64,000 bases of DNA from Candidatus Melainabacteria bacterium. GTDB taxonomy: Bacteria > Cyanobacteriota > Vampirovibrionia > Obscuribacterales > Obscuribacteraceae. Positions 21,069 to 37,902 of the stretch are shown in pieces. The translations under genes were made by a program, and so were the position numbers. Numbering within the stretch: the stretch's first letter is position 1; every line of letters starts with the position of its first letter. The stretch spans positions 124,532 through 188,531 of the forward strand of contig RXJR01000032.1 in assembly GCA_003963305.1 (NCBI GenBank), written 5' to 3'. Under the pieces are notes generated by a model. It ran no database searches. It saw only the letters and a list, made by a program, of their open reading frames with translations, and was not told where the DNA came from.

Positions 21069-21142
21069 CGGGACGTGGCGCAGCTTGGTAGCGCGGTTGC
21101 TTTGGGAGCAATAGGTCGCAGGTTCAAATCCTGTCGTCCCGA
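21069..21142 (+). tRNA. tRNA-Pro (TGG)
   Basis: The cloverleaf folds fully: acceptor CGGGACG/CGTCCCG, discriminator A, T-loop TTCAAAT and anticodon loop TTTGGGA with TGG at 21103-21105. CCA is not encoded. It stands at the left border of the accessory region. Confidence 0.95.
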
Positions 21143-21586
21143 GAGTTTCAGCTCTCAGAGCTTTTCATGTAATCACTGAGTAACCATTTGATCGAAGTGC
21201 GTCTTTATTCGCTTCGCTCATCCCCTTGTACCAGATTTAATATCAAAGCGCATCCAGACTCATAAATTTGACGTGCGTGAGCTGGTTGCCTGACCCCTCG
21301 TCTGCCCCATCTTCGCCTTATAGAGTTTGAAAGACAAAGCCTGTCAGGCTTTGTTTTTTGTTTTGACTGGAGTGGACACGATCTGCCACATTTTCTGCCA
21401 TGTACTTGAACATTTTGGGTAGCTAAAGTGGACAAGATCAAACACGAATTCTGATGAAATTTTGGGGTACAATTCGGGACCAACTTAAAATTCACTTTCA
21501 ATTGACCACAAATTACTGCTTGCGATCAACTCCCAGCCTGACATGCGCTCTTTTGGTTCGCAGCATATCTAGATACAGGAAAGATT
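21143..21586. other. Intergenic region downstream of tRNA-Pro
   Basis: 444 bases. It contains the terminator at 21334 and the ribosome site AGGAAAG of the next gene. No ORF is convincing, and no second copy of the tRNA 3' end was found by eye. Confidence 0.5.
21334..21359 (+). terminator. Strong intrinsic terminator
   Basis: ACAAAGCCT (21334-21342) pairs with AGGCTTTGT (21346-21354) across a three-base loop, followed by an unbroken T run to 21359. It is the classical rho-independent form and would stop transcription from the tRNA side. Confidence 0.9.
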
Positions 21587-22723
21587 ATGGTTGTTCAACT
21601 AGGCCCCACGCAACTCATACAATGGCTGAACGGCAACGGTTTTCAAAACTACGCTACGATCCTACAGAACGATCGGGATAGCGCGGCTCAACTCCTTACG
21701 TTAATGCCGGTGAATCTTATCAACGGGATTGAAATTGCACAAAGCCCCCAGCAATTAGCCTGGCAAAACGTTGGTTTATTCTACCGAACGCAAGGTCGCC
21801 TGCACGAAGCGCTAGCGGTATTTGAGCTGTTGTACCAGACAATGACCGAACGGCAGGTAGTCTTGAACCGATGGGTTCACAAAGCGATGCCGTTAGTTTT
21901 CCTATCGGAATGTCAATCCGCACTCAACTATAGAGCGGGCGCCAGAAGAAGCCTCTTGCTGTCTCTCATTGAAGATTCCATAAGTCACGGTGGACTGGTT
22001 CCTGCAACAAGCGGCACTTATTTCCGACTTGTATGGCAACACGGATATTCGCAATTGCAACTGAACGAAATCGGTCAACTTACACAAGCACAATTTCAAC
22101 CGACGTTTGATTATTCTTGGTTTCCAGAGTGGATTTTGTCTAATATTGAAACTCCAGATAGATCGATTTCCTCAGAATTTCCTACGCTTGAAGAAGCAAA
22201 TGAGTATCGCGCCAACGCTGCCTATATTCGAAGATTACTTGTTGATATAGACAACCCGACCATCACAACTGGTCTAGCGTTGGAGAGACTAGCTCAGTAC
22301 TGTTTAATGCTTGTACCAGGCATAAAAGCTTATCGCAGACGTGGAACACACAGCACCGATTTCGATGTCACATGCTACATGGAGGGCTCTGTCAATGACT
22401 TTCGGGCAGAGCTGGGGCGCTATTTCATTTGCGAGTGCAAAAGTTGGAGGGACAAAGCCGATTTTTCTACCGTAGCAAAGTTCGCACGCGTACTTGATTC
22501 AGCAAAAGTTCGCTGCGGAATATTGTTCTCGAAAAACGGAGTAAGTCGGGGAATCGGACATCAAGAGAAATTTGGTGCGCGCGAAATTTTGAAGGTGTTT
22601 CAAGACCGGGGAGTTGCAATCATAGTTTTCGACCGCCAAGACTTTAACAGAGTGGTTGCAGGCGAAAGCTTCCTGAATCTAATGCGCCTCAAATACGAAA
22701 AGATTCGAATGGACCTAGTTTAG
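21587..22723 (+). CDS. TPR-like plus PD-(D/E)XK nuclease-like protein
   Basis: 378 residues, AGGAAAG upstream of the ATG. Residues about 56-90 look like a TPR helix pair (NVGLFYRTQGRLHEALAVFE). The C-terminal third has the order of an Mrr/restriction-endonuclease fold: E233 in GLALERLAQYCL, the acid D258/D260 after a basic turn (RRGTHSTDFDV), and E283-C-K285 in RYFICECKSW, with a Q/K-helix beyond. All three catalytic positions are present, so it may be active on DNA. It is the first gene of the accessory stretch. A defence role is inferred from fold and neighbours only. Confidence 0.7.
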   Translation: MVVQLGPTQLIQWLNGNGFQNYATILQNDRDSAAQLLTLMPVNLINGIEIAQSPQQLAWQNVGLFYRTQGRLHEALAVFELLYQTMTERQVVLNRWVHKAMPLVFLSECQSALNYRAGARRSLLLSLIEDSISHGGLVPATSGTYFRLVWQHGYSQLQLNEIGQLTQAQFQPTFDYSWFPEWILSNIETPDRSISSEFPTLEEANEYRANAAYIRRLLVDIDNPTITTGLALERLAQYCLMLVPGIKAYRRRGTHSTDFDVTCYMEGSVNDFRAELGRYFICECKSWRDKADFSTVAKFARVLDSAKVRCGILFSKNGVSRGIGHQEKFGAREILKVFQDRGVAIIVFDRQDFNRVVAGESFLNLMRLKYEKIRMDLV

Positions 22724-22867
22724 ATTGAGCACCACTAATCATTGCAAACTAAAACGGAAACGAATTTCTACCATGTTTCCGAAGTGGGAGACCAGATTCT
22801 TGCTCCATGTTATTGCACCGAATCGTGACTTTTATAACCCAAACTGGTTCATGAGCTGCAATTAAAA

Positions 22868-25144
22868 ATGTCACTTAACACCGCAAAAATGTTTTCGCGT
22901 CCTCAAAAAATTGCGTTTTTGATTGATCCAACCACCACATCCGATTTGGAGATCAATTCGTTACTTCTATTCTGCATGTCGGTGTGGGGCGGACGGCATT
23001 TTCCAATCGTTCCAGTGAGCAGTATTAACGAAATGTCTGGTGATTGGTTGTCATTCTTGGCTAACTCCGAGCCAGATTTGGTTTATTCAACTATCAAAAT
23101 TAGCGACACTTTCAAAGCTCAAATTCGCGAAAGAGTCAGGCCTATCACACTTCTAAACGGCGATAGGAATGAATTTCATTTTGACAGCCAGTTCTTTGAA
23201 GTCGCCAGTGTCAGTGACGTAACGCATTCACGATTCAGAAATTTTGCGCCACAAACCTGGTGCCCTATGCTCACAGCTTTCGACACGCTCGGAACAGGCA
23301 GTGACATTCGTAGAGCTTCCGACAATTATGCGCTGCGCAATTTCGGATTTCTGCCGCGGGACATTTGGAGAAAACTGGAATTAGACCCCCTAACGTTCGT
23401 CGAGAGGTTTCAGATCGAAAATCCGAATTCGATGTTTGACTTGTACGGGTACAAAGTTTGGCCGATAGACTTCTGTAGCTGGAACATTTCCCGCTTCCAA
23501 CCTGACATACCCTTTTTCTCGTCGCATGTACAAATCATATTGGGAGATAGCTTGTACGAAGTACTCCATTGGTGGAACAGGGGTACAGTACAACGCATTC
23601 CGATGCCAGTACGAGACACAATCTGGGTTCCAAGGGAGATGCTTAACGGTGATGAATTGTTCTTCGTTGAACTAGGCAAAGTAATTGGTGGATGGACCGA
23701 CCTGTTAGGTCCAGCAAGATTTCAACTAGCTTCCTATACCGAGACTTCTCACACTCTGGAAAAAATCGCTAGGACGCTTTCTGAAAGCTCCGGTCAAAGA
23801 TTTCAAGCAAATAACTTGCGCCTGGAAGAGTTTGATCCATGCCAAGTATCAACTTCAGCGGGTTGCGCACAAGATGATATGGAGTTTCGGACCTTTGAAA
23901 GCAAGGGCACTTTGATCAACATACCGACTCCAACCGATCTTAAGAACACGAACAAGAAAAAGTTAGGTTGGATCGTGGAAATCGAATTTCAGACCCCAGT
24001 CCTCGGAAACGCTGCAACATTTAAATCAGGTCGCTGGCACCTGCCAGCCCGTGAAGGGCTCGAAAAGCTTTTCTGCAAAAACGCACGCTGCAAGATCAAT
24101 AAATCCGGGCATTTGGTGGCAGAAATTCCAAATTTAGACAGCACTCAGAATTTGCATCTTCAAATACCTGACGTTCCAGACCTGATGAATCATATTTTGA
24201 AAACGGCATCAGACAATACTGCTACGACTACTGCGCATCCTTCAGCTCTGACCCAATCCGTTGACAGCGTGCTATCTCATTTTGATGGCATCGAAAATTA
24301 TGAACGCTTTACACGTCAAAAAGGTTGGCAAAGTATTTTTGACAAACTAAGCAGTGTCGAGGAAGAATTGAAAGCTTTATTTGAAAGCGAATTACGAGAA
24401 TACTTTCAGGAATTCTTTCCGAATGATCTTCAATCCTTTGAATCTGCTGCAATCCGTTTGGTATCAGCCTACCGGAGGGAAGGCCACAAGCAACCGCACA
24501 CGTTAACACTCAAAGGATTGAAAGACCTATTTCACAAATCACAAAAAGTTTGGTCGGAAGAACAATATGAAACTGAACTGTCAGAATTGTTGGAAAGAAG
24601 AATACTTTTTGAGGGCTCTGAGCTCACTTGCACCAGCTGCGGTATTAGAGGTTGGTTCACAGTAGATCAGCTTAGCCGCCTTGTGACTTGCACATCTTGT
24701 CTTTTGCAATTTAACCTCCCTCACAATCGTAAGCAATCAGTACGAATGAATGGATTAATCTATACCGCTCTCAACAGGTTATACCTGAGACCAGTGATAG
24801 CGGCAATCTCTGCAATACGTCAGAAAACGACGGAGTCTATGTTATTTTGGCCTTGCATCGACCTGTGGAATTCGGAATCAAAGTTAAAAATCACCGACAT
24901 CGACCTATTGGTGTTAGCCGATAGCAGAACCTTGTTCGTTGAAGTAAAATCGAACGCGGCTAGCTTTGACAAACCGAACGAGTTGCTTACTTTCATAAAC
25001 TACGCTAAGAATGCTAAGCCTGACGAAGTTGTTTTTGCTGCACCTGATCACACTTTCGCACCAGTCGATCCGGCGTGGTTTGTGAACGTGACAAAAGAGC
25101 TCACAAAAGAGAACATACTCGCTACCATTCTTAGGCTTACATAA
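22868..25144 (+). CDS. Large protein with zinc ribbon and C-terminal PD-(D/E)XK-like domain
   Basis: 758 residues; family not recognised. The N-terminal part contains the phrase WGGRHFPIVPVSS and PDLVYSTIK. A Cys4 zinc ribbon sits at C588, C591, C608 and C611. The C-terminus has D679 (TDIDLLVLAD) and E692-x-K694 (LFVEVKSNAA), the D...ExK core of nuclease-like folds. A D679/E692/K694 triad is consistent with catalysis. It follows the other nuclease-like gene by 144 bases on the same strand and ends ten bases from the convergent HEPN-motif gene. Confidence 0.6.
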   Translation: MSLNTAKMFSRPQKIAFLIDPTTTSDLEINSLLLFCMSVWGGRHFPIVPVSSINEMSGDWLSFLANSEPDLVYSTIKISDTFKAQIRERVRPITLLNGDRNEFHFDSQFFEVASVSDVTHSRFRNFAPQTWCPMLTAFDTLGTGSDIRRASDNYALRNFGFLPRDIWRKLELDPLTFVERFQIENPNSMFDLYGYKVWPIDFCSWNISRFQPDIPFFSSHVQIILGDSLYEVLHWWNRGTVQRIPMPVRDTIWVPREMLNGDELFFVELGKVIGGWTDLLGPARFQLASYTETSHTLEKIARTLSESSGQRFQANNLRLEEFDPCQVSTSAGCAQDDMEFRTFESKGTLINIPTPTDLKNTNKKKLGWIVEIEFQTPVLGNAATFKSGRWHLPAREGLEKLFCKNARCKINKSGHLVAEIPNLDSTQNLHLQIPDVPDLMNHILKTASDNTATTTAHPSALTQSVDSVLSHFDGIENYERFTRQKGWQSIFDKLSSVEEELKALFESELREYFQEFFPNDLQSFESAAIRLVSAYRREGHKQPHTLTLKGLKDLFHKSQKVWSEEQYETELSELLERRILFEGSELTCTSCGIRGWFTVDQLSRLVTCTSCLLQFNLPHNRKQSVRMNGLIYTALNRLYLRPVIAAISAIRQKTTESMLFWPCIDLWNSESKLKITDIDLLVLADSRTLFVEVKSNAASFDKPNELLTFINYAKNAKPDEVVFAAPDHTFAPVDPAWFVNVTKELTKENILATILRLT

Positions 25145-25154
25145 CGTTTATAAA

Positions 25155-26084
25155 TTATTCAAAACAAGTAAGACAGCGGTGGTCGTAAGTCGAATCCGCC
25201 AAAACATTTCCAGGGCACTGTTTTCTACTTTTGCACTTCCTGCGCAACACTTTGAAGGTTGTTTGGCAGGATAAGCAGCGCAAAGCCTTAGAGTCAGGAG
25301 TATTTGGTGATAATTGGGCTAAATCTGCTTTGTAATAGTAGTTAGAGTCATAACACTCTGGGCAGAAGTATCGTCGTAGCCGAGGATCGAAACCATAATG
25401 CTTCTTGAGTTCAGCCGGTGTCAATCCAAGCTTATCTACGACGTGTAGAGTTTCTTGCGCGAAAAGTGCACCGGGATTAATATCATAGGCACCAAATAAA
25501 TTGTCTCGTTCCTCAAAATACATCTTTCTAGTACAATGCCAAGATTGAGGTCCAGTAAACACTTCGCTTATTTGCATAATCGTAATAGCCACGTCTTTAA
25601 CTGAAACGGTCGCACGTTTGTCCAGCGAATGCATTGTTGTATTTCGCAATCTTCGCAGTCTTTTAAAAGTTGTCTTAAATGAATCCGGCAGCCTCGGCGA
25701 GCAAATCGTGTCATGGAGCCTTATCAAGTCTTGCGCATCTACCGTTTTAAAGTCAGCAAAAGATTTGTCTTCAGTATCGCACCCGGAAATCCACTTCCCC
25801 GGTTCATCCGAAATAAGGAGATACGGACTGATCGCCGCTATTTTTCCTTTCAGCATAAACTCTGTTCCCTGCTGAGCGAGAGCAATCGAAATTAACAAAT
25901 TATGCTGAGAGTTTTTCCAATATTTCTCCTCAAGTCTTAGTTGCTCCTCCTCATCGTTGTAATTGTCATATTCCTTGTACCGATCAAGCTCAGTAGATAG
26001 CCTAATAATTTCTTCCCAAGCGAGATTTAAAAAGGCTTTACCGGTGGCAACAAATTCATCAGAAGTCGGCAAATCGATAATCAC
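25155..26084 (-). CDS. HEPN-motif protein with Cys-rich C-terminus
   Basis: 309 residues. The mainly helical N-terminal half contains R147-N148-T-T-M-H152 in RLRRLRNTTMHSLDKRA, exactly the RNxxxH motif of HEPN ribonucleases. The C-terminal 80 residues hold nine cysteines in CPEC, CLSC, CKSRKQC and RCLTC pairs, suggesting zinc ribbons that contact nucleic acid. HEPN proteins are RNases in abortive infection, toxin-antitoxin and CRISPR systems, but the fold also occurs in non-catalytic proteins. It is convergent with the gene at 22868. The motif match is direct, the activity is inferred. Confidence 0.6.
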   Translation of the reverse strand: MIIDLPTSDEFVATGKAFLNLAWEEIIRLSTELDRYKEYDNYNDEEEQLRLEEKYWKNSQHNLLISIALAQQGTEFMLKGKIAAISPYLLISDEPGKWISGCDTEDKSFADFKTVDAQDLIRLHDTICSPRLPDSFKTTFKRLRRLRNTTMHSLDKRATVSVKDVAITIMQISEVFTGPQSWHCTRKMYFEERDNLFGAYDINPGALFAQETLHVVDKLGLTPAELKKHYGFDPRLRRYFCPECYDSNYYYKADLAQLSPNTPDSKALRCLSCQTTFKVLRRKCKSRKQCPGNVLADSTYDHRCLTCFE

Positions 26085-26408
26085 AATGACCTTACTTTTT
26101 GAACAACATCATCAAATGATGCTATCTAGATCTAGAGTTTCAAAAAAGAGCACGCAAGTTCATTCTCGCATGAATTTTAGGCGGTAATTTGGGCGCTGAA
26201 TCAACTTCAAAATTCGTTGTGCTTTAAACTTCCACAGACTCGCTTGTCTCACCACCGTAGCTTCTAAGGTCCAGGGCTCCAACTAAAGGGCTGGCTGGGG
26301 CAGCTTGCCACCATCAGACAATCCGCCGACAGCTAAAGCGCTTAAAACCACCGCATTTAATTCCATATTTAAAAGGTATAACAGATGCTCCAAACGCCCG
26401 ATCAACTG
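26085..26408. other. Intergenic region
   Basis: 324 bases between two minus-strand genes. No ORF, hairpin or repeat is convincing. Confidence 0.4.
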
Positions 26409-26975
26409 TCATCTAATCGAGAACGAACTAGAGCAACCTTCGCCACTACATTTCAGTCGTTCTTGATTGGTGCGCAGGTTTTTAGTACCGCATATAGGGC
26501 AGATGATCTGCGCTGGGCGCCAAGACTTTGCATGCAACTCAGCCTCTGAGAACGAGCCGAATAAAGCATCAGACCCGTCTATATTGTTAGCTGCTGGCGA
26601 CCCGTCGGCATAAACAACTTGATAATCTTCCCCAGACAGCTTCAAGATGTGCAACCCGTTCGCTGTTTTGTATAGATTTGAATTTTTGGCAGGCCGACCG
26701 CCTTTCGCCCCGTTGTTTCTGGCAGCCTGTTGCTTTGCCAAGGTCGTAGACCCTCCGCCTTTAGCGCTTGCGATTAGACGAAGGTCGACAGGTTCCATCA
26801 CCAAATAAACAAAATGATTAGAGGTTGCCTGACAAATCCTAAGCGGAGTTTCGTGGTGAAAGCAAAAACCGTGTCGGATGCTGGGCTGTTTCTCAAGTTT
26901 AGGAGGGCAAGGCAGCTTAGCGCAGAGCTGTCGGTAGTGCTCATCGCATAATTCAATCAAAGTAAAGAATTGCAT
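26409..26975 (-). CDS. Unknown protein with Cys4 C-terminal ribbon
   Basis: 188 residues from an internal ATG at 26975; an ATG at 27011 gives 12 more. The middle has a basic, Gly/Ala-rich tract (QQAARNNGAKGGRPAKN) reminiscent of AT-hook-like linkers. The C-terminus has CPICGTKNLRTNQERLKC and a final Cys, a zinc-ribbon form. Nucleic-acid binding is plausible. No family recognised. Confidence 0.55.
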   Translation of the reverse strand: MQFFTLIELCDEHYRQLCAKLPCPPKLEKQPSIRHGFCFHHETPLRICQATSNHFVYLVMEPVDLRLIASAKGGGSTTLAKQQAARNNGAKGGRPAKNSNLYKTANGLHILKLSGEDYQVVYADGSPAANNIDGSDALFGSFSEAELHAKSWRPAQIICPICGTKNLRTNQERLKCSGEGCSSSFSIR

Positions 26976-27105
26976 TATCAAAACCCAAGTAACTTGGATA
27001 TCATAACCCAAGTGTCAAAAGAAGCAAGTTAAGTCGAAGACTACGCTGTCCACCTCACTATATTGCCAAGATTGTACGAAAACCAGTAAACCGGTGCAGT
27101 TCAAT

Positions 27106-27594
27106 TCACAGCTGCAATTCTGACTGCGCTTGTTTGTACGCCTCGACGAAATCCACTGCTACCGCCCTTATTTGTTCAATAATACGACTTACAAACAATT
27201 GGGAACTAACTTCCCCGGTCCTAAGCCGTGGTGACATCCAAGTGACTACAGGGTAAAAGTCATTTCGCTCCCGTCGTATGTCACGCTCTAAAACAGCAAG
27301 CTGAGTGACGTAAGCGCGGACAGCGTAGACATACGTCCCACGGTCACTTTTTATACTTTCAACGGTAATTCCCAAATTTCCGGGTGCATTAACCGCTCCA
27401 TACTGTTCACTGGTTAACGTTTTTATACCGGCGTCATTCACAAGCTTCTCGATCTCTTCCTCAATTTTTTTTGAACTACTTTGCAGATCGAATGCTTCAA
27501 TTTCACATGGCAAAGGCGTAACGGCGATCCGGAAACCATCAAGAGCCATCAAAGATTCCCGTTGGTTTCGTTCAAATTCGTTGTAGTCACTCAT
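27106..27594 (-). CDS. Conserved-looking protein of unknown function
   Basis: 162 residues from the ATG at 27594, with GGAGAG just upstream; a TTG at 27606 is the alternative. No membrane segment or metal motif. Predicted alternation of helices (KKIEEEIEKLVNDAG) and strands suggests a globular cytoplasmic protein. Base composition matches its accessory neighbours. Confidence 0.55.
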   Translation of the reverse strand: MSDYNEFERNQRESLMALDGFRIAVTPLPCEIEAFDLQSSSKKIEEEIEKLVNDAGIKTLTSEQYGAVNAPGNLGITVESIKSDRGTYVYAVRAYVTQLAVLERDIRRERNDFYPVVTWMSPRLRTGEVSSQLFVSRIIEQIRAVAVDFVEAYKQAQSELQL

Positions 27595-28649
27595 AAAGCT
27601 CTCCAATCACTTAACCTAAACATATCGCTTACCGACAGCATCAGATGCGTAACAGTAACATCCATCTAATGGTGCCCTGCCGAATGTCGAATACTCAGAA
27701 ATAGGGGTTTCACCGACAGTCGAAAGAGTAGAGTTGTAACTATTTTACATCAGCGACAGATTGAAACACTTTGAATTTTCACGAATACGCAAGAATTGCA
27801 GCACCGCATGCCGTAAGGCAGAATGAAGGTTCCGATCACGGACGCACCAAACCTTGCAGAATCGTTCATTAAACATGGTTCGATACGTACTTTGCACTGA
27901 TCGGTCCTAGACCATTAAGCCACTACATATGGTACAACTAATTCAGCACAAGTTATAAAAAACTCTGTATGGCTTGATCGCCCTTGGGCAAAAATCATCA
28001 TTTACTACGTGCTCACGTCTCATAACCTGGGTTAAACACTGCCAATTTGCAATCTAATAGTTCACCACCATTTGCCACAGCATGGTGGCGTATATGGTGA
28101 TTAATCTCAGTCGCATCTTGCCGTGAAAGGCACAATCACAAAACTTGATCGTCTTCTTATTTATCAAACCTGCTCAATGGTGCTAGTCACGGTTGGCTGC
28201 TAACCCCTAAAGAATAATAACTGTGTGTTCGAAATCCATATCCTATGTAGCTCCTATCGTAAATTCGTAAAGCGACACCCTTACTACAAGCTATAACAGA
28301 CTTCGAGCATGGCGCGCAAGCCCTTTCCGATTGTATATACGTTCGATTCATGCGCTGTTAGAAGATCCGCATGGTTCTGACTCGGTCACGACACCAGCTG
28401 GCACCTTAGTGTTGCAGCGTACCAGCTTAAGGCGTTAATAGATGAGCAGTTGAGGCGAGCAATACGCCGAAGATACCTAGCCCTCCTCATCAGGTCCACG
28501 GCGCATTTACATTTGTGCTCCAGACATTAAGGCATGAATCGCTCAGCGAATGCAGACTAAGGTCGACATGGAATGTTGAACAATTTGTGATCTGTGGGGA
28601 AAGCCAGCCGACTTCACCTATACACTCGTTCAATAAAATGAGGTTGAAA
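27595..28649. other. 1-kb stretch without a recognisable gene
   Basis: All frames are broken by stops every few tens of codons. The composition is AT-richer than the flanks. A small hairpin, CCACCAT (28065-28071) with ATGGTGG (28082-28088), is the only structure noticed. It may be decayed mobile DNA; I cannot identify a source. Confidence 0.5.
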
Positions 28650-28907
28650 ATGCAAATTTCAAAAGAACAACTGACCAAGCTTGCGGCAGCCTATGAACTG
28701 CTTACGATAATTGGTGATCACAAGTGGGAAGAACATGGCGACATGGACGAACATGACTTGGCATGCAACGCGCAACTCCTCATGAAAAGAGTCTTCATGG
28801 ATATGGGAGTTACGGACCAGTACGGAAATATGATTGAACCCTACAATCAGACCTATGAGCTGATTCGGGATGTCTACAGTAGCGGCTATCGACGTCTTGG
28901 GAAATAG
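28650..28907 (+). CDS. Small unknown acidic protein
   Basis: 85 residues from the ATG at 28650 (AGG six bases upstream). An ATG at 28638 and a longer frame from 28515 also exist. The sequence is helical and acidic (HKWEEHGDMDEHDLACNAQL) with no known motif. It is followed 17 bases later by a gene with a strong ribosome site, so the two may act as a pair. Confidence 0.45.
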   Translation: MQISKEQLTKLAAAYELLTIIGDHKWEEHGDMDEHDLACNAQLLMKRVFMDMGVTDQYGNMIEPYNQTYELIRDVYSSGYRRLGK

Positions 28908-28924
28908 TTTTTGGAGGAAGAAAA

Positions 28925-29413
28925 ATGGAATTGAGCAGCACTGAGAAGGACGAAGTTCGTAAAATTAGGGACCGCGCGCTGGATTTGATATCGGAACGAA
29001 ATCAATATGACATTAGCGAAAGGCGGGCGTTGGAGAGCCTGAAAGACGGCAGTTTGCTCGATTATCTTAAACAAAGTTTTGATTCTGTCAGATCCGGGTT
29101 GAACGCTTTCGATGATGGTCCTTTTATGACTCGCTTTATGGAAGACGATCTTCCAGGCGGAGTGATTTCGCTTAAGGATGAAGTCATTCACTTTGACTTG
29201 GTGAGCAATCCAGTCAAGATAGTTTTTAAATATCCCGGTGAAGACGTTTACATCTCGGAGCTTGAGCATCAAGTCTTCTATCACCCAGCTGATGAACGCC
29301 CCGCTTGGTATTCAAGCGTGGAACGTTACCACGGCAAGACGAGCCATATAACTACTAATTCATTGGCACTCCGCGTATTTAAGTGGCTTACGGAAAATTA
29401 CCGAACTCACTGA
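28925..29413 (+). CDS. Unknown protein, partner of the preceding small gene
   Basis: 162 residues; GGAGGAAG upstream of the ATG is the best ribosome site in the area. No signal peptide, cysteine cluster or catalytic motif recognised. It may be an operon partner of the gene at 28650. Confidence 0.55.
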   Translation: MELSSTEKDEVRKIRDRALDLISERNQYDISERRALESLKDGSLLDYLKQSFDSVRSGLNAFDDGPFMTRFMEDDLPGGVISLKDEVIHFDLVSNPVKIVFKYPGEDVYISELEHQVFYHPADERPAWYSSVERYHGKTSHITTNSLALRVFKWLTENYRTH

Positions 29414-29460
29414 TTCTAAACGTATGTAGTAAATCGGTTAATTGGTTAATTGGTCTTTCA

Positions 29461-30024
29461 ATGAGATGGTTTTTAATCTTTCAAACTGTTCTTCTACTGC
29501 TCTGGGGCTCGAAGGCTAGTGCACTAGACCACAAGAACTTGCGCAATTTCACGACAGCAGCTGTGATTGTCGAAGAGATACCAAAGGAAGCGGCTCATTT
29601 TGGTGTAAATGAAGACAGAATAAAAACGATGGTGCAGCTAAAACTGCTTAAGAACGGCATAGCCGTTTGTCGAGATATCGATGAATGTGATGCACCGACA
29701 TTCGACATTGCCGTTAATTCACTCATTCATGATGACATGCTGTTTTGTACCATCTCGATTACCGTACGAGAGCAAGTGGTTCCATGGTTGGTGCTGAAAC
29801 AAAAGCGAGATCCCCAGACAGGCAGCTTACAAGCCAACCGCATGGAACTCCTAAAGGAGTCAGAGTGGGCAATTGTATGGAAGGGGGACACTTTTGGTGT
29901 CTTTGGACGAGCGAGACTGCCCGAAGAAGTCTATCAAATGGTGAACCAGACCTTGGATGGTTTTTTGAGGGATTTCTACCTTTCAAGGCAGAAAGTCCCA
30001 GGTACGAATAAGTCGGTTTTATGA
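29461..30024 (+). CDS. Small exported protein of unknown function
   Basis: 187 residues from the ATG at 29461. A clear signal peptide (MRWFLIFQTVLLLLWGSKASA) with cleavage before LDHK points to export. The mature part has two cysteines in CRDIDEC and no recognised fold. The ribosome site is weak. Confidence 0.55.
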   Translation: MRWFLIFQTVLLLLWGSKASALDHKNLRNFTTAAVIVEEIPKEAAHFGVNEDRIKTMVQLKLLKNGIAVCRDIDECDAPTFDIAVNSLIHDDMLFCTISITVREQVVPWLVLKQKRDPQTGSLQANRMELLKESEWAIVWKGDTFGVFGRARLPEEVYQMVNQTLDGFLRDFYLSRQKVPGTNKSVL

Positions 30025-30254
30025 GTTCTGATGCCCGGCTCCAGCATAGTCTGAGACGTGTCAAGAATCGTCTCTGAGGCATCGCAAATGGTGCCTAACT
30101 TTATTTCAGGGCGGGGAAATTTTGGACTTGCGATATATACAAAACATAGCCGCCCTTTTGCTTTGGTGGAGATATTGACGGCGCATGCACCCCACGATCG
30201 CCTTTTCTTGACGTTAAGGGTGGGGGTGCCTGCCGGCGGTCGCAGCCAGGCTTG

Positions 30255-30512
30255 CTAGGCTGTCTTCAGCAGTCTTTGAAGTGTTGAGACGCTCAATCCA
30301 GTCTACTTTGCTGCTTGTCGCATGCTGAGTTCTTGGCTTACCAGCTCTCTTGCCTGGTTCCGCTCAGCAGCACGGTCTCTCGCTCGTCGACCAAGCTTCA
30401 CGCCTGCCTCACGTCTAGCCCGCAGCCCTGCCTTAGTGCGTTCGCTCAGTATCTCTGCTTCAGCCTGATCAACGACAATTAGAACTACGCGGTTGTCGAA
30501 ACTATTGTCTCA
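30255..30512 (-). pseudogene. Serine recombinase (resolvase/invertase) relic
   Basis: Reading the minus strand gives AEAEILSERTKAGLRARREA followed by GVKLGRR, the junction of the catalytic domain's long helix and the linker in serine resolvases (normally ERELISERTKAALA...GVKLG). The frame runs to SMRQAAK, meets a TAG at 30303-30305, and continues as TGLSVSTLQRLLKTA, the family's C-terminal helix-turn-helix. The N-terminal catalytic part with the active Ser is missing. This is a truncated, nonsense-containing gene and a trace of a lost mobile element. Confidence 0.8.
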
Positions 30513-30662
30513 TCAACTGACTTTTTTTCTGACTAGTATTTTCGTGCATAAGAACTGGTAACGACAGAACAAATCTGTTGTCCCTCGTTACCGAAAAGAA
30601 TCACAAGCGGCCGAATTTGCTGTGCACTAAATGCTGTGCCGTCGACTGAAAGAAATGAGACC

Positions 30663-30905
30663 CTAGTTTGGATTGTGAGCATCCTTTATTTGCGCAAAAT
30701 AATGATCCGAGTCGGCATAAGAAGACAGATTTATTTGCATTTGGCACTTCACTCCGTTAGTAATTCGAAACACAAACCAGCTGTCTTTCAATTCATCTGG
30801 AACACTCTTGAAGGCACTGAATTGCGTATTGCGGAAGACAATTGATGTTCTCTCCGCCGGAATTTTGATAGCAAAATATCTCGAACTTCGGCCTAAGTCG
30901 AACAA
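30663..30905 (-). CDS. Possible small protein or gene fragment
   Basis: 80 codons from a TTG at 30905. Composition is protein-like (RNTQFSAFKSVPDELKDSWF) but there is no signal peptide or ribosome site. It starts 25 bases after the next ORF upstream ends, so it may be a second cistron or the tail of a broken gene. Confidence 0.3.
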   Translation of the reverse strand: MFDLGRSSRYFAIKIPAERTSIVFRNTQFSAFKSVPDELKDSWFVFRITNGVKCQMQINLSSYADSDHYFAQIKDAHNPN

Positions 30906-30930
30906 TTAGTGACACGTACTCAGGTGTTTT

Positions 30931-31176
30931 CTACTTCAAATTAGCACTTTTGATAGCAGCAAGAACTCTTTTTTCGCAATCATCGGACCAAGTTCGGAAC
31001 GTTAAGCTAGGTGTTAGCCAAGTAGGGTCGCCCCCGTGATGTTCGGGCTCAAAGTAGTACCAGAATTGATACTGCTTCGAGCTTGAGCTCTGCAATCCAC
31101 CTTCCTGAAGTATTTTACTCTCGTTGCTTGCTGAGACGGAAGAGCCTGTCATGGCTATTGTGCACTGAATCACCAA
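30931..31176 (-). CDS. Possible small exported protein
   Basis: 81 codons from a GTG at 31176. The N-terminus (MVIQCTIAMTGSSVSA) resembles a short signal peptide. Upstream codons in the same frame are also hydrophobic, so a TTG at 31179 is possible. The mature part is rich in Ser and aromatic residues (QYQFWYYFEPEHHGG). No family recognised. Confidence 0.4.
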   Translation of the reverse strand: MVIQCTIAMTGSSVSASNESKILQEGGLQSSSSKQYQFWYYFEPEHHGGDPTWLTPSLTFRTWSDDCEKRVLAAIKSANLK

Positions 31177-31352
31177 AACCAGAAATTTGCAAAAGGGGCA
31201 ATAAGCAATTCCGGAATTTCATTTTCGTTTCCTCGATGGAAAGGTGCTCTCGCTGCTTACGGCACTGTATGTAGTGCCAGCAACCCCTGTCGGTTCAGCG
31301 ACTGGGCTGTTTTCGCTCACGACCAATCCCCCTCCTTTTCTTGCCACTCTCT

Positions 31353-31574
31353 TCAGACTCCGCTGTGCAACTCCTTGCGGATTGTACTCATCTGTCCTGG
31401 CTTCGTTAGACCGTGTCTGTTTTGAATTTCAGTGAAATCGAAGTGTTCTGGTCTCGCTGTCCATAGACTGTGTCCAGGGCTAACACCAGGCTGCACAATG
31501 ACGTGAGTGCACTCGATGGTGCCATCCCCGTTCATTCGAGCGCTTTCGGTAATTTCCTTTTCGGGTTCGCTCAT
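31353..31574 (-). CDS. Possible 73-residue protein
   Basis: ATG at 31574 with GAGGAGTGGAG upstream. The product, beginning MSEPEKEITESARMNGDGTI, has no recognised motif. A second frame (31480-31785) overlaps it and is less protein-like. It may be a gene remnant. Confidence 0.35.
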   Translation of the reverse strand: MSEPEKEITESARMNGDGTIECTHVIVQPGVSPGHSLWTARPEHFDFTEIQNRHGLTKPGQMSTIRKELHSGV

Positions 31575-31905
31575 CCCAATCTCCACTCCTCGTAAATCGG
31601 CGCAAACAGGCACCGTAATGAGTTCGAGTAATCATTATCATGATGTGGCGTTGCGTGCAGAGTCCCTCACCTGTCAGCCATAGGTCTTCTTCATCAGCCA
31701 ATAATCCCAACACTCGCCTAGCCTCTTTCCGGGCAGACTCGGATTTAATTGTCCTTCCGTGTAAAAGCCAACCGCAAAGTCGCATGGATAGACAGTTACA
31801 ACAGCGCTCATATTTGCGATGAATACAATAATGACTAGATTTGGTATCGCTTATAAACCAATAAGTCCGGCTCTGTCAGAGCGAAATCATGCCTCGATAT
31901 TGTAC
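31575..31905. other. Stretch with only broken frames
   Basis: 331 bases. Two overlapping minus-strand frames look partly protein-like, which would fit a gene degraded by frameshifts. Nothing definite can be called. Confidence 0.35.
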
Positions 31906-32547
31906 TTACTTATTTGAATGCCTCACCACATTAATCAATCTGTCGATGGCGTGCTTGTCGTTAAGCAAGTTCACGTTGATTTTGTCAGCAGCTTTACCAT
32001 TGAAACGAATATTGCGAGCGCTGAAATCTGACGTAGTATTTCCATTTGCCTTCGCAACAATGGCTACACGCGTAATCATCAAGCCACTGGGGATAATAAT
32101 TCTTACCGATACCGGCTGATATGTGCCAGTTTCGACTTTCAATAGACTCGAATTGAATGCCGCGCTTTCATAGGAATATATTTTAGTCGCGGGTGCAAAG
32201 AATTCAACCGATACCAGCGGCGGTGCAAATTCAGAACCGGGATTCAAATAACGGTCCATTTCAACATCAAGGTAAGCACTGTCAGGAAAAGGAGCCCCTG
32301 TCCCGGGCATAATCAAAGCAAAGTCTGCTGAGCCTAGTATTGCAGCAGCGCCAAAAGTAGGTTGGTCACTAGATAGTCTGACAACTGGTTGCTCCGCGGA
32401 AATATTCCAAACGACTCTGGGGCCGACTTGATTCGGCGGAATCGTTTTTGCGCGCTGAACTTCGCCGTACATGGTGTTAGCGTTCACGCGACCGACTGCG
32501 AGCGCAAAGGTTGCGAATAACGCGAACGCTGTTAGGCTTTTGTTCAT
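31906..32547 (-). CDS. Exported protein of unknown function
   Basis: 213 residues from the ATG at 32547, with AGGAG nine bases upstream; the open frame extends further but the signal peptide fixes the start (MNKSLTAFALFATFALAVGR, cleavage at VNA-NT). The mature protein alternates short strands with Pro/Gly turns, suggesting a beta-sandwich domain, and has no cysteines. Possibly carbohydrate- or surface-related; not proven. Confidence 0.6.
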   Translation of the reverse strand: MNKSLTAFALFATFALAVGRVNANTMYGEVQRAKTIPPNQVGPRVVWNISAEQPVVRLSSDQPTFGAAAILGSADFALIMPGTGAPFPDSAYLDVEMDRYLNPGSEFAPPLVSVEFFAPATKIYSYESAAFNSSLLKVETGTYQPVSVRIIIPSGLMITRVAIVAKANGNTTSDFSARNIRFNGKAADKINVNLLNDKHAIDRLINVVRHSNK

Positions 32548-32741
32548 AGAAGGAAACTCCTGCCACTTTGAACAGATCTCGATTTCGCCATTATAGTCTC
32601 CCGGTCGCCGCCCAGTATTTTTCAAGTAACCATACTCGAGTCGTATCGTGTGCCACACCTTGGAGCAAAGATTCGGCAGTTCGCGGCCCGACAATGTATA
32701 ATTAATCAATAACTGTCGTTGCAGACTCTGCAACCAATCGC

Positions 32742-33608
32742 ATGCAAAATTTTGAAGATCCAGAAAACTGGACCGGTGGACCGACCTTCGATTTGACGCT
32801 CATTTCTGAGGCACGATTAAGTGGAAGTTCCATCAACGAATTGCTGTTAGCTTCTGGCAAGTTTTCACTCTACTCCGGTTCTCCAAAAGAGAAAGGCATG
32901 CGGACGCTTTGGGAACTATCTCCAAATGTGAAATTGCCTGCGAGACACTCGCATTACTGGTCGACCTACAGAACTCCATATTTTTACTACAACTTCCACA
33001 TTCGACCAAAGGTGTTTCAGAAGTACATAGGTACAAAATCCTACGAAGATATTGCACAGATTGAGGATCCGACGAATCTGGCTATTCTCATAGAAGCTTT
33101 CATTGAAATAGTGTTTCTTATCAAATCTAAATTCAGTATCGAGTATGCCACCATCGCGGACGAGAACGACGGTCGAGGTCATCCAGACTGGAGAAGCGAC
33201 CTAAAAGGAATCTACATCAGCAAGTCCGTATGCGAGCTTCTGCAGATTCCTTCAGTTCCAGTTGATGAAGCTGACCTAAATTTCTCAAATTCATTTATCG
33301 ACGTGCCCAGGGCATCGTCCGAAGTTCACACCGCCCTTGCGTCCTTAAGAACCAATAGGCTCAGGCAAATAGTCAAGAAACATGATCCGGCTGGTTTGCT
33401 TGCATTAGGGGCTCCTTCTGACGAATACGATGCGGAAATCTCACAGCTAGACCACGCGCTGCAATCGATCAAATCAAGTGAGGCACTGGCGATATTCTTG
33501 CAGGATCAATATTCCGGTATCAACATGGGGAAAAGCGATTTATTGGACCGTATCAAAAAAATGTCCGATGAGATTTGGTCCTGGCAGTATGAGACTAGTG
33601 ACTACTAG
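32742..33608 (+). CDS. Unknown cytoplasmic protein
   Basis: 288 residues, no signal peptide, no known motif. It is aromatic-rich near residues 70-95 (HYWSTYRTPYFYYNFHIRP) and helical after residue 190. It is convergent with the next gene, which ends 13 bases away. Confidence 0.55.
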   Translation: MQNFEDPENWTGGPTFDLTLISEARLSGSSINELLLASGKFSLYSGSPKEKGMRTLWELSPNVKLPARHSHYWSTYRTPYFYYNFHIRPKVFQKYIGTKSYEDIAQIEDPTNLAILIEAFIEIVFLIKSKFSIEYATIADENDGRGHPDWRSDLKGIYISKSVCELLQIPSVPVDEADLNFSNSFIDVPRASSEVHTALASLRTNRLRQIVKKHDPAGLLALGAPSDEYDAEISQLDHALQSIKSSEALAIFLQDQYSGINMGKSDLLDRIKKMSDEIWSWQYETSDY

Positions 33609-33621
33609 TTCAGCTACAAAT

Positions 33622-34458
33622 TCAAATGCCTCGATCATGCTGCATTCGATATTTCTCGATGATAGGCAGAAGTTTTGAGACGTGTTGCTCGGCCATTTTC
33701 CAAACAGTTTCCGAATCGCGATTCCAAGGCCTTGTTGCCGGGTGCGCGACCTGCAGCATGTCTTTGCGCCACTCCGCGATATCCGTTTTCAGAAATGACA
33801 CTTGCGCGGTTACACGACTAAGGACATCCAGATTAAAACGTAGTGCATCCTGACTTGTTTCAGACTCCAGAAAATTTTCCTTCCCGGCAGAAACACAGCG
33901 TTCTATCTTTTTTATCAGAGCGACGATTTCCGGAATCAACAATTTATCTTCATTCCAATTGTTTTCCACTTCGTAAACGGACTGCTCATCGGGACTTCGA
34001 AGTTGCAGTTCTAAATCGCTGAAGTCGAGGTCAAACGGAAAACTCGGTAGCCTGCGGTGTAAGCGGTTCTCGTTTCGTCGAGCCAACTCGTAATAATGAT
34101 TACCTGAAACAATCATCCGACCAGTCATGGCGTGAGAAGAGCCGATCGTCGCAAACCGCAGAATCGAGGCTTCCCGATAACTGTCAAAAGCAGTAGCTTG
34201 AAAGCTCAAACAGAGTTCCGTGCCGATTTCCTGCATAATGCGTCTAAGCTGGTCAAATGATTGGACAGTTGGCGCCACAAAAGCCTTCAATTCAAGCAGA
34301 CAACGCGGATTATCGGTGAACTCGGCATTAAAAGTCAGCCACGCCTTGTGTTCACCAAAATAATGATTTGCGTCTAGTAACCAACCTACTCTATCGCCAG
34401 CCTTGTGCGAGCTTACGATCAAATCAACTACTTGTTCAAACAATTTATTTACAGTCAA
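33622..34458 (-). CDS. Unknown cytoplasmic protein
   Basis: 278 residues, mostly charged and helical, with no membrane segment. It has a Trp-containing C-terminal helical stretch (DIAEWRKDMLQVAH). No family recognised. It lies downstream of a LuxR-type regulator on the same strand, but 122 bases separate them. Confidence 0.5.
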   Translation of the reverse strand: MTVNKLFEQVVDLIVSSHKAGDRVGWLLDANHYFGEHKAWLTFNAEFTDNPRCLLELKAFVAPTVQSFDQLRRIMQEIGTELCLSFQATAFDSYREASILRFATIGSSHAMTGRMIVSGNHYYELARRNENRLHRRLPSFPFDLDFSDLELQLRSPDEQSVYEVENNWNEDKLLIPEIVALIKKIERCVSAGKENFLESETSQDALRFNLDVLSRVTAQVSFLKTDIAEWRKDMLQVAHPATRPWNRDSETVWKMAEQHVSKLLPIIEKYRMQHDRGI

Positions 34459-34580
34459 ATGACTGCTGGTTGTTCATCCACCTTAAACCAAATCAAGTTT
34501 GCACGCAAGCATCAACCAAAAAATGAGACAAAGACTGATTTGCTAGTTTATGTTGCTCATACCGAGACATAGCGCAAAAT

Positions 34581-35468
34581 TCAATCGAGTTCCCGATGTC
34601 TACGAATCGCCTCACGTGCGAATTCCTCTGCTTTCTTCTGCTCCTCAGTACAACCACTTACAGGATCTCGACCTTGCATAACTGGAAGCAAAACAAATCC
34701 ATATTGAACGCCTTTGAGCGCAGCCGCTGTTCTTGTCGGCACTTTTAGTTTACTCAGTATGCCTTTGATGCAATGCTCGACGGCGCTCGATTCTAATTCC
34801 AGTTCTTCAGAAATTTCTTTATTACGAAGATCAAGACGAACCAAAACAGCCACTTCTTGCTCTGTCAGACCGAAATCATGTGTTGAGACAGTTGGTGTCT
34901 GTCTAATCAAGTGAACAATTTTCGGCTCGCTATAACTCCTCGCAGCAATGAGTTCTTGAATAGCATCGAACAACACTTGTGGACCAGAGCCTTTCAGACA
35001 AAATCCGTTTACGCCAGCTCTGGTCAACTGATAGAAATATTTGGTGGCATAGTATGAGTCCGTCCAGACCAAAACACTAGAATTCGACGATTCCTTTCTT
35101 AGAGCGCTGCACAGAGTAACGCCACCAATATCATCGAAAACGATGTCTAAAATTACGACATCAGGTGCCAGGGTTCGAACCAATTCGAGTAAAGATGCGC
35201 CGTCTTTTGCCTCACCTACAATTTCCATAAATGGTGAAATCATCGCGGACAGACCCGCTCTAATCAAATCATGGCGATCGCATATCACCGTACGCGGACG
35301 ATAAGAAAATCTCGGACTATCAGGCCACTCGACATGAGAACCGCCACCATCCGAACCTCGTCCATCACCCGTTCCTGTTCGGGTAGGACGGTTGCGTCCG
35401 GATCCGTCACGCCCAGAACCGCTTAAACCCTTCGTTTCGGGCTCGCCAGGATGGTCAGTACTCGACAT
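34581..35468 (-). CDS. NarL/LuxR-type response regulator
   Basis: 295 residues from the ATG at 35468; a TTG at 35501 adds 11. The first 55 residues are a Gly/Arg/Ser/Asp-rich disordered tail (RDGSGRNRPTRTGTGDGRGS). The receiver domain has the phospho-acceptor Asp in DVVILDIVFDD; the switch-lysine position reads CLKGSG. The LuxR helix-turn-helix starts near residue 208 (GLTEQEVAVLVRLDLRNKEI) and has the family's VEHCIKGILSKL recognition helix. No sensor kinase is adjacent, so it is an orphan here. Confidence 0.82.
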   Translation of the reverse strand: MSSTDHPGEPETKGLSGSGRDGSGRNRPTRTGTGDGRGSDGGGSHVEWPDSPRFSYRPRTVICDRHDLIRAGLSAMISPFMEIVGEAKDGASLLELVRTLAPDVVILDIVFDDIGGVTLCSALRKESSNSSVLVWTDSYYATKYFYQLTRAGVNGFCLKGSGPQVLFDAIQELIAARSYSEPKIVHLIRQTPTVSTHDFGLTEQEVAVLVRLDLRNKEISEELELESSAVEHCIKGILSKLKVPTRTAAALKGVQYGFVLLPVMQGRDPVSGCTEEQKKAEEFAREAIRRHRELD

Positions 35469-35559
35469 CGGACCAGGTGCCCCAGAATACAGTTTTATCA
35501 ATAGCCACTACAAGCGGCGCCCTAACTCAATATGACAGAAAACCTTTAGATAGCTAGCA

Positions 35560-35949
35560 CTACCGAGTGCGCTGCCAGATCTCGTAAACTTGCCCTTGCT
35601 TGGTGTGAAATACTTCCGGGCGAGCAGTGCCTGGGAATGAAAAAATCGCTTTCAACACATCGTGGTCAAGCTCAAAAATCCCCTGTAGCGCCTGCCCGGC
35701 GAATGGACCTTCATCAGGCAGCAAATCGATCTGGTTTGGTGACACCGCAGTGTTCAGCTTCACGCCACCGGTTTTGCTTTTTGGAAAACCACCGACAAAC
35801 ATAGGATAAGACAACTCAGCCCATTCCAAATTGAATTTGTCATCTTCAGTGAAACTATAACGAAATTCCTGGAAGATGCTGTAAGGCAGCCACTTCCCAT
35901 GCAACTGGCAGCCAATCACTTTCCATTCACCGATCAGTTCCTTCAACAT
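35560..35949 (-). CDS. TIGR03067-type lipocalin-like protein
   Basis: 129 residues. The opening LIGEWKVIGCQLHGKWLP and the core NQIDLLPDEGPFAGQALQGI with FELDHDVLKA match the small domain common in planctomycetes, often fused to other domains. No signal peptide, so this copy seems cytoplasmic. Ligand unknown. Confidence 0.65.
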   Translation of the reverse strand: MLKELIGEWKVIGCQLHGKWLPYSIFQEFRYSFTEDDKFNLEWAELSYPMFVGGFPKSKTGGVKLNTAVSPNQIDLLPDEGPFAGQALQGIFELDHDVLKAIFSFPGTARPEVFHTKQGQVYEIWQRTR

Positions 35950-35969
35950 TGCGCGTTTCCTCTAGTGTT

Positions 35970-36356
35970 CTACTTGATCAATTCAGCAACCAAATTCGCC
36001 ATCAGCATCGACATTTTTTCAACAATGCTGCGATGCACAACAATTTCATATTCTTCCAGCAAAAGCTTCGGATCGCGATAGCCGATGAACGTCTGTTCCC
36101 CGCGCCAGATCACTATCTTGAGGGGCAGTTCAATCCCAACCGCAGGACATTCTTGCATCAAAGAAGTGCCCACTTTCGGGTCGCCGAAAATCACCACCTG
36201 TTCGTCTTGCAATTCCAAACCTTGTGCACGAGCCGCTTCAGCATGATCGATGCGAGCGAAGACCCGAATGTTCTTGCTGCGCAAAATATTTTCAAGCTTG
36301 TCGGCGACTGCTTGCACACTTTCGGAACTTGAATTTATGGTCAAAGAATGATTCAT
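35970..36356 (-). CDS. DUF302 domain protein
   Basis: 128 residues. ENILRSKNIRVFARIDHAEA, VVIFGDPKVGTSLMQECPAV and GIELPLKIVIW are the typical DUF302 sequence landmarks. Function unknown; it is a compact alpha/beta domain. It lies 20 bases upstream of the TIGR03067 gene on the same strand, a likely two-gene operon. Confidence 0.85.
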   Translation of the reverse strand: MNHSLTINSSSESVQAVADKLENILRSKNIRVFARIDHAEAARAQGLELQDEQVVIFGDPKVGTSLMQECPAVGIELPLKIVIWRGEQTFIGYRDPKLLLEEYEIVVHRSIVEKMSMLMANLVAELIK

Positions 36357-36474
36357 TGCGGCGAAATAACACTATCCAAACTCCAGCCCTCTGCCGGAAA
36401 TCGTCGTAATAATACAAGAGATCATTTTGATTTTTGTTGATACGGATTTCAAGCACGGCTAAAATGAACTCCTG

Positions 36475-37026
36475 ATGAAAGAAGATTGGGAAATAAACAA
36501 AGAATTGAAAGAACTGGCGGAGAAGCTTTCCGCTCTTAAGTGCGTACTGCAGCCGCTCTCTGAAGAGAAGGTAGCGGCGTGGGAAGCAAAATGGGGGGTC
36601 ACACTGCCTGGCACTTATCGCCGTTTCATTACGGAAATCACCGACGGAGTCGTCATGCCAAGAGCCACTCTGATTCCGCTGGAAGAGACAATGACAACGG
36701 CGCGCGGTAACAACTGGCTGCCTTCGCAATTACCCCGCGATTTCCTTCAAAAGCCTTTCTTGCCGGATGACGACTTCAATCCCGACACCATACCTGGTCT
36801 GGACGACATGACCTGGCGCTGGAGCGATGACGAATACTCCAAATGGTGGATGGAACACCTGCATGGCACAATAGTTATTTCGCGGCACAAAGAGGAACGC
36901 ACCTCATTTCTCGTCGTCACGGGCAAATCGCGCGGGCAGGTGTGGGCTGACCTGACCACGGTCGGCGAGGGCTATGAGAGAGCAGACTGGGACTTTCTCG
37001 ACTGGGTTTTAAGAAACGCTGCATAG
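36475..37026 (+). CDS. SMI1/KNR4 (SUKH) family protein
   Basis: 183 residues. The signature WEAKWGVTLPGTYRRFITEI, with GVVMPRATLIPLEE and the GEGYERADWDFLDWVL end, fits SMI1/KNR4. In bacteria many SUKH proteins are immunity proteins against polymorphic toxins, but no toxin gene is adjacent. It sits nine bases before trhO. Confidence 0.75.
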   Translation: MKEDWEINKELKELAEKLSALKCVLQPLSEEKVAAWEAKWGVTLPGTYRRFITEITDGVVMPRATLIPLEETMTTARGNNWLPSQLPRDFLQKPFLPDDDFNPDTIPGLDDMTWRWSDDEYSKWWMEHLHGTIVISRHKEERTSFLVVTGKSRGQVWADLTTVGEGYERADWDFLDWVLRNAA

Positions 37027-37035
37027 GTAAATCAA

Positions 37036-37902
37036 ATGGAAATTGTCAATTTAGCAGCCTACAAATTTGTAAGCATCCCCGATCCGAATTCCTGGAGACC
37101 GAGAGTCAAGGCTCGCTGCCAGGAGCTGGGCGTGATGGGCAGCATACTCTTCTCGCCCGAAGGCATAAATCTGTTTGTCGCGGGAGAGCGCACTGCCATA
37201 GACGCGTTTCTTCATTTTCTGCGAACTGATGAATTGTTTGGCGGAAGATTCGCCGACATCATAGTCAAGGAAAGCGTCTCTGAAACACAGCCGCACAAGC
37301 GGATAGTCGTAAGACTGAAAAGCGAAATCATCACCATGAAGCATCCAATGCTGGTGCAACCGACTGATGAGCGTGCACCAGCAGTAGAGCCAGCTCAATT
37401 AAAGCGCTGGCTCGATCAGGGTCACGATGATGAAGGAAGAGAACTATTGCTGCTTGATACGCGCAATGAGTTTGAAGTCAACATCGGCACGTTCGAGGAG
37501 GCGATTCACTTCAAGATAGAAAAATTCAGTGAATTCCCGAAAGCATTTGATGACACCAAACCAACTATCAATGAAGACCTGCAGAACAAAACCGTAGTTT
37601 CATTTTGCACAGGTGGAATTCGTTGCGAGAAAGCCGCTTTGTTTCTCAAAGAAAGGAATGTTCCTAATGTCTTTCAGCTCGACGGCGGCATCCTCAGATA
37701 CTTCGAAGAAATCGGCGGCGCTCACTGGAACGGCGAATGCTTCGTTTTCGATCGACGTGTCGCGCTAGACCCTGCGTTGAACCCAACTCAAAAAGAATAC
37801 GAAATAACAGCCAAGCAAAGTCGCATGGAACAATACTATCGATGGAAAGCGAAGAAAGAGTCCGAAGCCGGCGCAAATTCTTCGCAATCCACCGTTAGTT
37901 AG
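37036..37902 (+). CDS. trhO: TrhO, tRNA U34 hydroxylase (rhodanese family)
   Basis: 288 residues. An N-terminal acylphosphatase-like half (NLAAYKFVSI, LFSPEGINLFVAG) joins a rhodanese domain with the active-site loop C191-TGGIRC (SFCTGGIRCEKAALFL) and the conserved QLDGGILRYFEE. TrhO makes 5-hydroxyuridine at position 34 of tRNAs using O2; it was formerly UPF0176 (YceA). Present in one copy here, nine bases after the SMI1 gene. Confidence 0.93.
   Translation: MEIVNLAAYKFVSIPDPNSWRPRVKARCQELGVMGSILFSPEGINLFVAGERTAIDAFLHFLRTDELFGGRFADIIVKESVSETQPHKRIVVRLKSEIITMKHPMLVQPTDERAPAVEPAQLKRWLDQGHDDEGRELLLLDTRNEFEVNIGTFEEAIHFKIEKFSEFPKAFDDTKPTINEDLQNKTVVSFCTGGIRCEKAALFLKERNVPNVFQLDGGILRYFEEIGGAHWNGECFVFDRRVALDPALNPTQKEYEITAKQSRMEQYYRWKAKKESEAGANSSQSTVS

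Follow-up and report, generated by a model that had tools for sequence, protein, structure and literature searches.

The interval at 21587-26084 of the window (by which we mean the whole stretch of 64,000 nucleotides that was analysed, from a Candidatus Melainabacteria bacterium) probably belongs to a variable, defence-type hotspot beside a tRNA-Pro gene, and probably carries independent single-gene candidates rather than a three-gene machine; we put the odds of this reading at about two in three. The candidates are P0003, a putative abortive-infection RNase, P0002, a putative DNA-cutting defence nuclease, and P0001, which may be Mrr-like. All three open reading frames lie where an earlier note on this DNA had placed them (P0001 at 21587-22723 and P0002 at 22868-25144 on the forward strand, P0003 at 25155-26084 on the reverse strand), in a host genome of 7.48 Mb in 44 contigs whose named close relatives are Candidatus Melainabacteria MAGs. 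From motifs and genomic context we infer that they are nucleases, which substrate they cut (RNA or DNA), what triggers them and that they act against viruses, and our certainty descends from the nuclease identity of P0003, through that of P0002 and then the defence role of both, to the identity of P0001. None of the three gave a significant match to the PADLOC-DB profiles, and a sequence search of solved structures returned no credible match for P0001, P0002 or P0003.

A variable interval beside tRNA-Pro

DNA similarity to two genomes of the same genus, G001 and G002, ends at most about 100 bp past the tRNA-Pro gene (TGG; 21069..21142, forward strand) and restarts from 37030 at the rhodanese gene trhO (37036-37902), which forms the right border of a variable region (21143..37030, unstranded). 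The interval from tRNA-Pro to trhO measures 15.9 kb in the window; in G001 it is filled by other genes over about 7.2 kb, and in G002 by different genes again over about 19 kb. Genes of the variable region have a lower GC content than the genes that flank it (0.464 versus 0.495; Mann-Whitney p=0.004). The strong terminator that the earlier note placed after tRNA-Pro corresponds to a hairpin with T run, terminator-like in form, at 21328..21360 on the forward strand, with 15 stem pairs counted, the longest stem among the five terminator-like hairpins found. A promoter scan yielded sites no more numerous than in shuffled sequence, and a repeat search of 21140-37040 found nothing CRISPR-like.

The final 45-47 bp of tRNA-Pro serve in G001 and G007 as the repeat of integrase elements and recur at the element's far end, with an integrase adjoining in G007. 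In the window, the native flank of tRNA-Pro (21143..21246, unstranded; 87% identity to L062 12804-12950 of G001, where this flank is kept beyond a truncated tRNA copy) lies directly 3' of the tRNA, so that no element is inserted in tRNA-Pro itself, and the integration site appears unoccupied. With the native flank in that position and no second tRNA 3' end in the window, insertion of P0001-P0003 within a tRNA-Pro-borne element is ruled out here. No integrase was recognised in the variable region of the window, and none of the variable-region genes scanned against PADLOC gave a convincing match, which leaves the window itself with no known defence neighbour.

Several further observations concern the site and its counterparts. 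Direct repeats at L062 12906-12950 (G001) and L055 12994-13040 (G007) mark elements integrated at tRNA-Pro, the interior of the G007 element containing an integrase gene (L055 11448-12797) and encoding a 1920-aa RHS-like protein. The corresponding interval of G002 holds JAB and CBASS-type ThiF/E1-E2 genes and an integrase (L052 2773-5176, 13085-14529). Within the variable region of the window, a 278-aa ORF (33622-34458) has a weak HepT-like Pfam match (E=0.039), and a 200-aa ORF adjoining P0003 (26409-27011) has a C-terminal CxxC motif and weak matches only.

P0003, a predicted HEPN RNase with a C-terminal zinc ribbon

Active HEPN RNases are defined by an Rx4-6H motif together with an Ex3[KR] motif (Anantharaman et al. 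2013, PMC3710099), and HEPN domains in which these motifs are intact are RNases that, in defence, commonly drive cells into dormancy or suicide (PMC3710099). P0003 encodes a protein of 309 aa with C-terminal zinc ribbon(s), read from a GTG start and convergent with P0002, which we aligned with twelve relatives from plasmids, E. coli, an IMG/VR contig and cyanobacteria. The catalytic motif R144-x2-R147-N148-x3-H152 (RNTTMH; 25629..25655, reverse strand) occurs in 13/13 sequences, as does the second HEPN motif, E75-x3-K79 (25848..25862, reverse strand). An RNxxxH motif alone is weak evidence, since it arises in 1.6% of shuffled P0003 sequences, but its conservation in all thirteen is not. The exact motif and the Cys-rich end of the convergent protein had both been noticed before, and both are family features: among the C-terminal pairs C241/C244, C270/C273 and C304/C307 (25164..25364, reverse strand), the first two are found in 12/12 full-length sequences and the third in most. 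The GTG start is likewise supported, by relatives that have their own start, M-I-I-D-x-P-T, at the same column.

A structural model of P0003 made from three sequences was of moderate quality in its N-terminal half (pLDDT about 45-79). The top structural match of that half was the HEPN protein 2hsb (Z 10.4, rmsd 3.2, 116 residues), a score below the helical-bundle background of about 13. Other HEPN chains (1o3u, 8xdj, 7bxo, 5yep) were also among the best matches; as designed and unrelated helical bundles score nearly as high, the fold match is not decisive by itself. The designation of P0003 as a HEPN RNase is nevertheless a well supported prediction. Like the HEPN superfamily RNases (PMC3710099), it carries an Rx4-6H motif in which N follows R, an upstream Ex3[KR] and a helical N-terminal half, and its relatives occur in mobile and defence contexts. 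Unlike them, it is a stand-alone protein of about 310-420 aa with a conserved C-terminal zinc ribbon that matches no named family. The family gave no significant match in Pfam, NCBIfam or PADLOC, the nearest weak ones being DUF3644, HEPN_Swt1 and HEPN_Cthe2314. Phage genomes contained no match to P0003, and the sole match among viral contigs (L032) was discarded, because a large protein of another kind had been matched spuriously through its CxxC.

The neighbourhoods of the relatives of P0003, and of P0002 below, were read locus by locus, and the statements that follow refer to individual loci. Relatives of P0003 stand alone in accessory DNA. In Sphingomonas they adjoin Gabija GajA/GajB and a HamB-like helicase, with a tyrosine integrase gene adjacent; in Klebsiella the neighbours are LeoA and PDC-S26, and in Agrobacterium they are Qat genes and an integrase. 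The relative in E. coli HS (WP_000627053) lies among prophage remnants at ssrA, and a P0003 relative is present in 14 of 5426 E. coli genomes. A cyanobacterial relative is carried by an integrase element together with an AbiEii/HEC-01A-like ATPase. On two Sphingomonas plasmids (L009 7001-9297; L010 7001-9327) the relative is a longer protein of about 415 aa, and its gene is overlapped or directly adjoined by a tyrosine integrase gene of the same orientation.

Alternatively, P0003 might serve mobile elements as a toxin or maintenance gene, through toxin-antitoxin-like addiction, and not be antiviral. HEPN domains are common as toxins (PMC3710099), and the relatives are frequent on plasmids, in prophage remnants and near VapBC and integrases. 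However, the loci read around P0003 relatives have no conserved small partner gene, so that any antitoxin would have to reside within the protein itself, and we regard this explanation as rather unlikely. Most likely P0003 would be an abortive-infection RNase that works as a stand-alone effector: the C-terminal zinc ribbons would sense a signal, upon which a probably dimeric HEPN domain (R147-N-x3-H152 with E75/K79) would cut RNA and so stop the growth of the infected cell.

P0002, a predicted PD-(D/E)XK nuclease with a zinc ribbon

The earlier note had read P0002 as a 758-residue zinc-ribbon/PD-(D/E)XK protein, and the alignment of its family bears this out. The protein has an N-terminal region of unknown fold, a zinc ribbon (C588-x2-C591...C608-x2-C611; 24629..24700, forward strand) and a C-terminal PD-(D/E)XK nuclease domain with the triad D679, E692 and K694 (E692-V-K694; 24902..24949, forward strand). 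The four Cys and the D-ExK residues are invariant in 9/9 sequences; since the relatives are only 15-25% identical to P0002, this conservation is not due to chance. Further invariant positions are M1, G41, G42, D70, W236, P393 and G414. We consider the prediction of a PD-(D/E)XK nuclease well supported, here too on the grounds of sequence. The family is unnamed and its proteins measure about 760-860 aa, with full-length relatives in genomes G012 and G013, in Burkholderia glumae and on Piscirickettsia plasmids, and more distant ones on Bradyrhizobium and Rhodococcus plasmids and in two cyanobacteria. A profile search of genome contigs with the alignment returned only the two Melainabacteria already known, and viral contigs gave no match to P0002. 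An AlphaFold2 model from two sequences had a pLDDT of 37 and was unusable for fold comparison.

The PADLOC CARF_PDDEXK profiles match three distant members of the family, with the best cyanobacterial match at E 2e-4, and it was these matches that suggested a CARF domain in P0002. They cover the nuclease domain only, and hhalign of the N-terminal half of the family against eight CARF-PDDEXK proteins gave a probability below 1, in an insensitive comparison that missed the shared nuclease domain too; the CARF candidate gained no support from it. Thus, the nuclease domain of the cyanobacterial relatives resembles that of CARF-PD-(D/E)XK effectors (Card1/Can2 type; PADLOC CARF_PDDEXK), but the resemblance is confined to that domain, P0002 having a zinc ribbon and, within the reach of this insensitive comparison, no CARF signal in its N-terminal part.

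Relatives of P0002 are also found near defence genes. In G012 (L007) the relative lies 36 bp 3' of a SoFic gene (PADLOC E 5e-123), and genes for Avs2 (E 8e-295) and for McrB-like and Mrr-like proteins are found no more than 10 kb away; in G013 (L006) it lies near HEC-05 and Mrr-like genes. In Bradyrhizobium it is located 3' of abortive-infection, PDC-S31 and YhaV/PrlF genes, the YhaV toxin gene being 3 bp upstream, and in G033 a Fic gene lies directly upstream of a truncated copy. The loci of the cyanobacterial relatives are not clear defence islands. Taken over both families, the co-occurrence with defence genes that the earlier note had proposed as a check was indeed found, with P0002 or P0003 relatives beside SoFic, Avs2, Gabija, LeoA and Qat. 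Two side observations belong here. Two Melainabacteria (L007 8243-11922; L008) pair a P0002-like gene with a Fic gene, SoFic in the case of G012; Avs2 adjoins the pair in one of them, and the two genes may form a unit. In Burkholderia glumae (L015 1-6671) the relative is preceded by a row of three tyrosine recombinase genes, an arrangement like that of recombinase-trio mobile elements.

The close spacing of the upstream genes in G012, G033 and Bradyrhizobium raises an alternative in which P0002 works together with a toxin-like gene located upstream of it, and in the window is either a solitary remnant or uses P0001 instead. Family members in cyanobacteria, Piscirickettsia, Burkholderia and G013 have another upstream partner or no close one, which speaks against such a pair as the rule, and we hold this alternative to be unlikely. 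P0002 would most likely be a DNA-cutting defence nuclease, whose N-terminal region may sense or bind a trigger or partner, whose zinc ribbon may contact nucleic acid and whose C-terminal PD-(D/E)XK domain (D679, E692, K694) would cut it. A bolder and tentative proposal, possible rather than probable, is that P0002 represents an undescribed, self-contained family of antiviral nucleases, spread over Melainabacteria, Cyanobacteria, Proteobacteria and Actinomycetota, whose members would join a new N-terminal sensor via a zinc ribbon to a PD-(D/E)XK domain and would detect a phage product without an ATPase or second messenger.

P0001, an orphan gene

P0001 is an orphan ORF of 378 aa: searches of 60 related genomes, of 244 from the phylum, of the plasmid collection and of viral contigs returned no relative. 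Its N-terminal part is weakly TPR-like (TPR_7, E=0.037, below the Pfam cut-off), and its residues 275-321, which include E283-C-K285, match Mrr_cat with E=0.039 and 14.5 bits, short of the gathering score of 21. When P0001 was compared by hhalign with three Mrr-type proteins of relatives, the score was 27.2 over residues 275-321, and 60 shuffled versions of P0001 reached at most 20.9. Like Mrr-type restriction endonucleases (PF04471), P0001 aligns to Mrr_cat over the ECK block in this segment; it differs from them in that the match is below the Pfam cut-off and in its N-terminal part. A nuclease role is thus likely by prediction but plausible only, and of the three potential nucleases originally proposed, P0002 and P0003 stand by their conserved catalytic residues, whereas P0001 has a weak, sub-threshold Mrr-like signal. 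Probably this gene came into the region on its own and encodes an Mrr-like nuclease whose N-terminal part is helical.

An orphan gene, a region in which no integrase was recognised and a truncated copy of P0002 in G033 could together mean that P0001-P0003 are of foreign origin and are now decaying or merely neutral, serving no current function. The three reading frames are intact, however, and P0002 and P0003 retain all the conserved catalytic residues, so this explanation strikes us as quite improbable.

Independent genes rather than one cassette

The interval had been put forward as a possible antiphage module of three genes, with the lack of linkage in other genomes named as the observation that would speak against it. 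We searched 138 kb of loci surrounding P0002 relatives and 220 kb surrounding P0003 relatives (about 358 kb) with HMMs in six frames, and recovered neither a member of the other family nor P0001: relatives of P0001 and P0003 never occur near those of P0002, nor the reverse. Of the 60 nearest genomes, none but that of the window has P0001 or P0003. Since the families are never near each other in the relatives' loci, and since two of them are found only here among those genomes, the three genes do not form a conserved unit, and a three-part system made of P0001-P0003 is unlikely. What stands of the original proposal is the association with defence, seen in the neighbourhoods of P0002 and P0003 relatives and in the variable hotspot at tRNA-Pro; what falls is the module.

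A cassette of three genes, or of P0001 and P0002 only, could still exist in this lineage alone. P0001 and P0002 are co-oriented with a gap of 144 bp, a further 10 bp separate P0002 from the end of P0003, and all have a similarly low GC content. Against this, P0001 has no relatives in any of the collections searched, those of P0002 and P0003 are never found near each other, and P0003 is convergent and hence shares no operon with P0002. We therefore consider a lineage-specific cassette very unlikely, and favour independent genes that share a hotspot.

Implications

The DefensePredictor report (PMC13092281) describes validated E. coli systems that place HEPN or PD-(D/E)XK domains in new arrangements, 13 with PD-(D/E)XK and four with HEPN. 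P0002 and P0003 resemble the single-gene E. coli defence systems of that report, in which a known nuclease domain appears in a new arrangement. The two proteins stand for two compact, unnamed families that extend across several phyla and join the likely antiviral genes, and each offers residues that lend themselves to mutation. Around tRNA-Pro lies a hotspot of gene exchange, in a little-known lineage that neighbours Cyanobacteria, and it illustrates that three adjacent nuclease genes need not be one system.
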